Shown piece after piece: positions 3,346-52,992 of a stretch of 64,000 nt of DNA. Below the pieces are notes generated by a model. That model saw only the letters and a program-made list of their open reading frames with translations. It was not told the DNA's origin and did no database searches. Both the position numbers and the translations under genes were made by a program. Position 1 is the stretch's first letter, and every line of letters starts with the position of its first letter. This DNA is from a virus, in the IMG/VR virus record IMGVR_UViG_3300008107_000003, positions 1 to 64,000 of that record; one strand, written 5' to 3'.

Positions 3346-4150
3346 GAGGTGACACATCATAATTAGTAATGTATAGATGACTTACCTTGTTGCCAGAATT
3401 ATCTCTACCAACAAAGTTCTGAGAATATTTGAAGTCCTTCGTAATCACGTTGTAATCGGCGTAAGCATCACGGTAGAACTCATTATCGCAATGGACTACC
3501 ATCCACTTCGCAGAAGTTGTCTGAAGGCATCCTAGAAGGTCCTGGTGAAGATTTAATCCACCATCTCCCTCAGTATAACCCAAACGATCTAGATATGGTG
3601 GATCAACGAATACAAAATCATTCTCTGTCAATCCATCAAATACTTTCTCAAAACTACCATGATCAATGTCACACTTGTGCAGAAACTTATGATGCTGTAG
3701 TGATAGATTGCAACTGAGTTTTTTATAATGTCCAAATGGCACATTAAACTCACCTTTAGAGTTATATCTCTCCATACCAGAAAAACACAGTTGCCTTACA
3801 ATAATATAAGCAATTGCTCGACTATCAAGATCAGTTGTATGTGACCATGGTTGATTAATGATCTCTCTAGATTTGTAATACAATTTCTCTAGATCATCAT
3901 GTTCTAGCAGTTTATACTGATCGATCCATGCTTGTACATCAGGATATAGAACTGGACTACCAATAACACGATACAAATTAATGACATCACGGTTAATATC
4001 ATTAAGATGTGCCATAGTTTCTAGACCAAAACTAACTGCAGCACCACCACAGAAAGGTTCAATAATCTTAGAATAAGTCTTTGGCAGAATAGTTTGAATG
4101 AAGGGCAGTTCTTTGCTTTTGCCACCCTGATATTTAATAATTGGTTTCAT
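3329..4150 (-). CDS. dam: DNA adenine methyltransferase (Dam, D12 class)
   Basis: 273 aa, normal size for a Dam-type N6-adenine methyltransferase acting on phage DNA. The N-terminal KYQGGK segment and IEPFCGG (residues 30-36) form the S-adenosylmethionine pocket, and the catalytic DPPY motif is at 183-186. The motif order (FxG first, DPPY second) fits the alpha/D12 class. No restriction partner is visible, so it is an orphan enzyme, probably protecting phage DNA or marking it. The ATG overlaps the stop of the next upstream gene by 4 bp. The recognition site cannot be told from sequence. Confidence 0.92.
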   Translation of the reverse strand: MKPIIKYQGGKSKELPFIQTILPKTYSKIIEPFCGGAAVSFGLETMAHLNDINRDVINLYRVIGSPVLYPDVQAWIDQYKLLEHDDLEKLYYKSREIINQPWSHTTDLDSRAIAYIIVRQLCFSGMERYNSKGEFNVPFGHYKKLSCNLSLQHHKFLHKCDIDHGSFEKVFDGLTENDFVFVDPPYLDRLGYTEGDGGLNLHQDLLGCLQTTSAKWMVVHCDNEFYRDAYADYNVITKDFKYSQNFVGRDNSGNKVSHLYITNYDVSPLDTLL

Positions 4151-4482
4151 ACTGTGAGAAGTCTAAATGCGAGATAAATTGCACCACATGCTAGAAGAAT
4201 AGGCCAAGCAGTGATAGCGATGTAGATGACAAATAATACCACACAAAAGGCAAGAAATCCCATGATGGCATCACCATCTCCATCGCGTACTAGACCAGTA
4301 TTAGAAGAAGATTTAGCATACATATCTCCTTCATAACGAGAACCTTTAGGGAAACAATTAATTACATCTCCAGGATTAAGTTGCTGAGCAAGAGCAAGAG
4401 CATCCTGATGATTAATTGCTTCTACTTCAGTCCATCGCAACTGTCCTGAAGGTGTTTTGATTAAGCAGCGCCAAGTGGTCAT
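4147..4482 (-). CDS. Hypothetical membrane protein, 111 aa
   Basis: A soluble N-terminal region of about 70 residues (MTTWRCLIKTPSGQLRWTEV) is followed by a C-terminal hydrophobic segment long enough for two helices (AIMGFLAFCVVLFVIYIAIT, then WPILLACGAIYLAFRLL). AAGGAA lies about 8 nt before the ATG. A perfect sigma70 promoter precedes it, so it probably heads a transcript that also carries dam. Function unknown. Confidence 0.75.
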   Translation of the reverse strand: MTTWRCLIKTPSGQLRWTEVEAINHQDALALAQQLNPGDVINCFPKGSRYEGDMYAKSSSNTGLVRDGDGDAIMGFLAFCVVLFVIYIAITAWPILLACGAIYLAFRLLTV

Positions 4483-4504: not shown

Positions 4505-4533
4505 ATTGTACATCAAAAAAGGGGGCGTGTCAA
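4505..4533 (-). promoter_or_regulatory. Perfect sigma70 promoter, -35 in terminator loop
   Basis: TTGACA (4533..4528), spacer 17, TACAAT (4510..4505). The -35 hexamer is the loop of a GC-rich hairpin at 4521-4538. Transcript start is expected near 4498, ahead of the ATG at 4482. Confidence 0.8.
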
Positions 4534-4538
4534 CCCCC
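4515..4538 (-). terminator. Rho-independent terminator
   Basis: In the minus-strand RNA, GGGGG, an 8-nt loop TTGACACG, CCCCC, then six U. It would end transcripts from the gene at 4566-5006. The loop doubles as the -35 of the next promoter. Confidence 0.75.
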
Positions 4539-4565
4539 TGATCAATAAGTAATACTTATAGGTTA

Positions 4566-5006
4566 TTAGCAGTCATATTCTTTTACCTCATCGAGTTGAT
4601 GTTCTAACTCCATGCGTTCTTCGGTTACTTGTTTAAGAGAAGAAACTACACTACGATAATTTGATTGACATTGATCGTAAAGATCTTGGAGTTTATTATA
4701 CTCATCAATAGCAGCACGATAATTCTTGTAGATCTGCTCTTTATCATTCTCAGTGTAAGCAGGATCATCAGAATAGAGAGCATCATGCTTCATATCTTGA
4801 ATGTTTTCTTTACTGGATCGTACTATCTCATTCCATGCCTCTGTAAATGTTCGATCTTGAACATCAACATAATGCTCTAGCAGTGTCAATGCTGCATCAA
4901 TCAATTTAGGTTCATAGTTACTATCTCGCAAAATATCACGAACAGTGAGATAACTGGTGATAGTTTCACTCAAATCATTCATTACTTTCCAATAAGGACT
5001 GGTCAT
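4566..5006 (-). CDS. Hypothetical coiled-coil protein, 146 aa
   Basis: The C-terminal half (about residues 75-146) is rich in Glu, Lys, Gln and Leu in heptad-like spacing (IDEYNKLQDLYDQCQSNYRS), which predicts a coiled coil. It starts at 5006 or, with a smaller overlap on the upstream gene, at the in-frame ATG at 4982. A terminator follows 25 bp after the stop. No family recognised. Confidence 0.7.
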   Translation of the reverse strand: MTSPYWKVMNDLSETITSYLTVRDILRDSNYEPKLIDAALTLLEHYVDVQDRTFTEAWNEIVRSSKENIQDMKHDALYSDDPAYTENDKEQIYKNYRAAIDEYNKLQDLYDQCQSNYRSVVSSLKQVTEERMELEHQLDEVKEYDC

Positions 5007-52432: not shown

Positions 52433-52636
52433 TCAGAAGATCCCGAAGAAGAGTTTACCAGTGCCAACATAAGAAACGAGCCCAGCAATAATGCCGACCA
52501 TAGCCCAACGTCCATTGTACATCTCCGTCATTTGCATAGGGGTCAGAAGACCTTTACGATTGTATTCTTGATAAACCATTTCAGGTTCTTTGGCCCACAT
52601 GTTTTGCTGGCCATACTCATTGGTTGTTACAGTCAT
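52433..52636 (-). CDS. hli: High-light-inducible protein with N-terminal extension
   Basis: 67 aa from ATG 52636. A polar N-terminal part (NMWAKEPEMVYQEYN, LLTPMQMT) precedes the Hlip helix EMYNGRWAMVGIIAGLVSYV and TGKLFFGIF. The extension is found in some cyanophage Hlips. Protects photosystem II. Promoter and terminator-like hairpin directly upstream. Confidence 0.92.
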   Translation of the reverse strand: MTVTTNEYGQQNMWAKEPEMVYQEYNRKGLLTPMQMTEMYNGRWAMVGIIAGLVSYVGTGKLFFGIF

Positions 52637-52663: not shown

Positions 52664-52692
52664 AGTATATATGAAAAAGGGGGGCATGTCAA
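52664..52692 (-). promoter_or_regulatory. Sigma70 promoter, -35 in terminator loop
   Basis: TTGACA (52692..52687), spacer 17, TATACT (52669..52664). The -35 is the loop of a 6-bp G/C hairpin. Start near 52657, ahead of hli at 52636. Confidence 0.8.
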
Positions 52693-52698
52693 CCCCCC
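52674..52698 (-). terminator. Rho-independent terminator
   Basis: Minus-strand GGGGGG, loop TTGACATG, CCCCCC, then five T. Would stop transcripts from the gene at 52741-52992. Confidence 0.75.
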
Positions 52699-52740: not shown

Positions 52741-52992
52741 TTAATCGTCTTTAACATAGCATGGAACTGTGTCTGGATCCAACCATTTAGTATATTCAAA
52801 ATCTTCTATTGCTGTCATAAGTTGCATTTCATTATCACATAGGTACATGTCACGATATCGACCAGTATACGAACACATTTTTTGAATGCGATAGTCTGGC
52901 ATACCATTGATTTCAAGGGTGCCTACTTGTACATAACGATAAGGAAAACGCTCAACGATTGTCTTCACGAGGTTTCGGTTTGTTACACTCAT
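52741..52992 (-). CDS. Hypothetical protein, 83 aa
   Basis: VTNRNLVKTIVERFPYRYVQ, MPDYRIQKMCSYTGRYRDMY and MTAIEDFEYTKWLDPDTVPC. Alpha/beta, aromatic, three cysteines. No family recognised. It has its own promoter just upstream and ends in front of a terminator. Confidence 0.7.
   Translation of the reverse strand: MSVTNRNLVKTIVERFPYRYVQVGTLEINGMPDYRIQKMCSYTGRYRDMYLCDNEMQLMTAIEDFEYTKWLDPDTVPCYVKDD

Follow-up and report, generated by a model that had tools for sequence, protein, structure and literature searches.

A putative terminator-promoter element of the PeSL type, with its -35 box in the hairpin loop, precedes hli in a Kyanoviridae cyanophage

A 35-bp site in front of the high-light-inducible (hli) gene of the virus record IMGVR_UViG_3300008107_000003 holds an intrinsic-terminator hairpin whose loop carries a consensus -35 box. 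Given its conservation and gene context, the site is very probably a composite terminator-promoter element of the promoter-early stem-loop (PeSL) type, from which hli would obtain a host-type, presumably early, transcript. The analysis was made on a window of 64,000 nucleotides (positions 1 to 64,000 of the record), and open reading frames were called naively throughout.

Anatomy and genomic setting of the site

Read 5' to 3' on the minus strand, positions 52698-52664 are GGGGGG-TTGACATG-CCCCCC-TTTTT-CATA-TATACT. The hairpin (52679-52698) consists of a GGGGGG 5' arm (52698-52693), the loop TTGACATG (52692-52685) and a CCCCCC 3' arm (52684-52679). The -35 box TTGACA (52687-52692) lies inside the loop, and the T-tract TTTTT (52674-52678) follows the stem within the 17-nt spacer that leads to the -10 box TATACT (52664-52669). 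The predicted RNA start is at about 52657. This reading bears out the preliminary description, which had reported a 6-bp all-G/C stem, a loop, a 5-T tract and then TATACT, and its observation of a terminator-promoter module is confirmed.

The hairpin was identified from the sequence, a terminator scan, RNA folding and covariation among orthologs. It folds with -15.7 kcal/mol (z = -2.5), its stem can be extended to 7 bp by one U-G pair, and in a consensus scan of 45-60 kb it ranks first among terminator-like sites. In the opposite direction the T-tract is interrupted. With a 6-bp stem and five T it is a modest terminator. The promoter, recognized in promoter scans, ranks 11/12 among the top promoter-like matches of the same region.

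As had been described, the site lies between an 83-aa gene and the 67-aa Hlip gene, both on the minus strand. The hli gene (52433-52636, ATG at 52636) matches PHROG 178 (E = 2e-27), and its protein has no Pfam match. The upstream gene (52741-52992, stop at 52741) belongs to PHROG 481, a family of unknown function. The region also encodes a ferredoxin and a peroxiredoxin. The closest isolate is Synechococcus phage DSL-LC03 (Kyanoviridae).

Copies in the same record

The site had been taken for the second copy of a module, and its twin was found on the minus strand at 4533. A strong promoter with its -35 box in a stable G/C hairpin followed by a T-tract occurs at only these two places in the window. 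The twin (4505-4539), detected by the promoter/hairpin scan and by folding, reads AGGGGG-TTGACACG-CCCCCT-TTTTT-TACAAT, and its flanking genes of 146 aa (4566-5006) and 111 aa (4147-4482) are all on its own strand. When wobble pairs are allowed, the full 176,692-bp record contains four nested sites, two of them outside the window; dinucleotide-shuffled genomes contain none (mean 0.0). A simple GGGGTTGACANGCCCC search overlooks the two additional copies, whose hairpins depend on wobble pairing or on a longer loop.

Three of the copies, at record positions 172,585 and 174,623 (both minus strand) and at 4533 of the window, have TGATCA directly before the G-run. If the record is circular, all three fall in a stretch of about 9 kb. 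The copy at 174,623 precedes a 415-aa helicase-like gene.

The promoter is kept and the hairpin varies among hli relatives

We compared 81 hli loci, comprising 80 retrieved relatives and the window. A TTGACA-16/18-TATAAT-like promoter is present 52-59 nt before the ATG in all 81, and in every one the -35 box has at most one change. The terminator hairpin surrounds the -35 box in 39 of the loci, the other 42 having the promoter without the hairpin. The latter arrangement is also found in DSL-LC03 (GGGGGGTTGACAATTCTTTATAATT...), and we therefore conclude that the terminator is not essential. In the model cyanophage S-PM2, hli03 (record position 124,303) is preceded by GGGGGGTTGACTAATCCCCCTTTTTCCTATATAAT, which is the same module.

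Where the hairpin is present, the stems differ between orthologs but stay paired (GGGGGG/CCCCCC, AAAGGGGTG/CACCCCTTT, AAGGGAGG/CCTCCCTT, GGGGAG/CTCCCC). In one register we counted 219 Watson-Crick cells, compared with 173 +/- 6.7 when rows were permuted. The pair (-3,+5), one member of which is base 6 of the -35 box, is T-A, G-C or A-T depending on the ortholog, so the last -35 base varies together with its partner. Because the stems covary even at this position, the fold appears to be kept by selection even when the consensus promoter base is lost.

Several hairpin-less hli promoters (L128, L179, L148 and similar loci) keep GGGGG before the -35 box and are G-rich after it (GGGGGCTTGACAGGGGCGCTGGGATG). 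This G-run could be functional in itself or could be a relic.

The hairpin accompanies a co-directional upstream gene

Among non-identical hli loci, the upstream gene is co-directional in 30 of the 31 with a terminator versus 14 of the 30 without one (Fisher P = 9e-6 with relatives treated as independent, a value that is optimistic because relatives share kinship). In the IMG/VR sample described below, the upstream gene is co-directional at all 78 sites where one could be called, these being drawn from the 79 sites not flagged as inside a naive open reading frame; the base rate is 308 of 409 ordinary intergenic gaps of at least 50 bp. Such tracking is expected of an insulator against readthrough, and judged from comparative data it is the strongest support for insulation.

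The preliminary description had proposed that the site would shield hli from upstream readthrough while starting it early. The first part is supported by the stem covariation together with the two gene-orientation counts, and a restart of hli from its own host-type promoter is supported by the presence of that promoter in every relative. A role in stopping readthrough and restarting hli is thus well supported comparatively. The transcript is presumed to be early from the host-type sigma-70 consensus; according to a review, host-type sigma-70 motifs precede early genes in S-PM2 and Syn9 (PMC2984593).

Distribution in viral and cellular genomes

The pattern GGGGTTGACANNCCCCNTTTT was found in at least 119 IMG/VR stretches, and a scrambled-loop control in 1. 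At all 120 IMG/VR sites that were inspected, the best hexamer located 15-19 nt after the -35 box differs from TATAAT at no more than two positions; at 92 of them it differs at no more than one, and at 111 its spacing is 17 or 18 nt. Cellular genomes (84,980 species) gave just nine matching stretches. From the shuffled genomes, the contrast with the loop control, the -10 spacing and the rarity of cellular matches, we conclude that the module is real and mostly viral.

On a contig with a match to an Enterococcus-phage-like DNA polymerase (L045), the same nested module occurs at 1305, where the -10 box is a perfect TATAAT and the ribosome-binding site is strong; the design therefore occurs outside T4-like phages too. 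Another stretch (L100, near 1877, minus strand) has the whole hairpin, together with its -35 box, doubled head to tail (GGGGGTTGACAAACCCCCGGGGGTTGACAAACCCCCTTTTTT). In two cellular sequences, the Oscillospiraceae MAGs L217 and L220, a nested terminator-promoter stands immediately before a tRNA-like sequence.

Proposed mechanism and alternatives

We propose that RNA polymerase arriving from the 83-aa gene would form the G6/C6 hairpin and U-tract and halt at about 52674. In its duplex form, the same DNA would present the consensus -35 box of the loop and the -10 box to the host housekeeping sigma factor, so that hli would gain its own host-type, presumably early, transcript from about 52657. Both functions would fit into 35 bp because the loop holds the -35 box and the spacer holds the U-tract.

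The element could instead be kept mainly as a recombination site, that is, as a mobile cassette whose common sequence lets genes shuffle. Homology ends between -85 and -50 from the ATG in 329 of 630 pairs of hairpin-bearing hli loci, the genes upstream of hli form about 30 clusters, and a shuffling role of PeSLs in T4-like phages has been published, as cited in PMC4503421. The conserved block, however, would also simply be the edge of a selected promoter-hli unit, and covariation preserves structure rather than sequence, which is of no help to homologous recombination. We regard recombination as unlikely to be the main reason for keeping the element; it is compatible with the terminator-promoter explanation, and the two are not exclusive.

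An extension of the terminator-promoter mechanism is that nesting would do more than save space: the terminated polymerase would remain bound to the DNA and pass directly into the promoter at which it has stopped, so that upstream transcription would feed hli initiation with no readthrough. Bacterial RNA polymerase has been documented to be retained on DNA after termination and to restart (PMC6978322), and the nested design was found again in unrelated phages. We give this extension only a slim chance of being correct.

It is also conceivable that the promoter alone matters and that the hairpin arises as a by-product where a G-run is favoured before the -35 box. The promoter is universal, the hairpin occurs in about half of the orthologs, and some orthologs have GGGGG before the -35 box without the C arm. 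Against this stand the compensatory changes in the stem (A-T/G-C swaps included), the T-tract after it and the association of the hairpin with a co-directional upstream gene, which make a by-product improbable. We consider it highly improbable that the hairpin is a DNA cruciform or RNA regulatory loop controlling the promoter rather than ending transcription: the palindrome does overlap the -35 box, which extrusion would take out of the duplex, but the arm is short for extrusion, the T-tract and strand bias (with the interrupted T-tract in reverse) suit a terminator, and the hairpin is linked to upstream gene direction.

For the terminator-promoter reading, the presence or absence of the hairpin according to upstream gene direction offers a natural comparative test of insulation, and S-PM2 hli03 provides a laboratory-phage counterpart of the module. 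The 35-bp part could serve as a compact insulated promoter for cyanobacteria.

Comparison with known systems

PeSL cassettes are known from T4-like phages, being tandem in RB49 and phi1 (Arbiol et al. 2010, cited in PMC4503421) and overlapping in KVP40 and nt-1, which infect Vibrio (Comeau et al. 2014, cited in PMC4503421 and PMC5348500). We took the features that define them from these citing papers and from the RB49, KVP40 and nt-1 sequences. The hli site shares a host sigma-70-type promoter (TTGACA-17-TATACT) joined to a stem-loop with terminator features, a location between co-directional genes, and a virus that is closest to records of Kyanoviridae cyanomyoviruses, DSL-LC03 and S-PM2 among them, and hence T4-like. 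Multiple copies are represented by the four sites of the record, with variability of the gene region seen at hli only. On this second-hand definition, we class the hli module with the known PeSLs, among which its geometry is compact.

The cassettes of RB49 and phi1 likewise combine a sigma-70-type promoter with an intrinsic-terminator stem-loop between co-directional genes, in several copies per genome. In RB49, however, the stem-loop mostly ends 16-19 nt (maximum 34) before the -35 box, whereas the cyanophage -35 box is in the loop; the RB49 genome has 12 tandem cassettes and no nested one. With the settings used for RB49, no comparable G/C-stem nested site was found in T4, Syn9, S-CRM01 or S-SZBM1, and the module is therefore not universal.

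In KVP40 and nt-1, promoter and terminator overlap within about 45 bp, again in several copies per genome (AAAAGGGTTGACAGATGTCAGCCCTTTTTTG-TATTAT). The scan settings were loosened for these two phages and shuffled genomes gave 5-8 overlaps, so only rows of the AAAAGGG-TTGAC-N-GTCAGCCC type were counted. Their -35 TTGAC pairs with GTCAG in the stem, whereas the cyanophage form leaves most or all of the -35 box in the loop and has a short G/C block as its stem.

Synechococcus phage ACG-2014f_Syn7803US26 (KJ019091) carries a dense family of PeSL-like promoter/stem-loop cassettes. About 25-30 dispersed cassettes of about 75 nt (TGTGACAGTT..AACTGGCACA..(G or C run)..TTGGCA/TAGGCA..CTATACTAAACACATACCAAA) occupy record positions 27,227-52,916 and a few more sites, nearly all of them on the same strand and directly upstream of an ATG.

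In the Staphylococcus kayvirus 515A1, RNA-seq places early promoter p98 after terminator t97 (PMC7698491). This arrangement resembles the hli site in that an early promoter immediately follows a terminator, with the backing of transcript data; it differs in that the two are, going by the text, adjacent rather than nested, and the phage is unrelated. S-PM2 has been described as being without a dense set of PeSLs (PMC4503421). The comparisons made here suggest that cyanophages, the model phage S-PM2 included, make wide use of composite punctuation of the PeSL type, with a tighter geometry.
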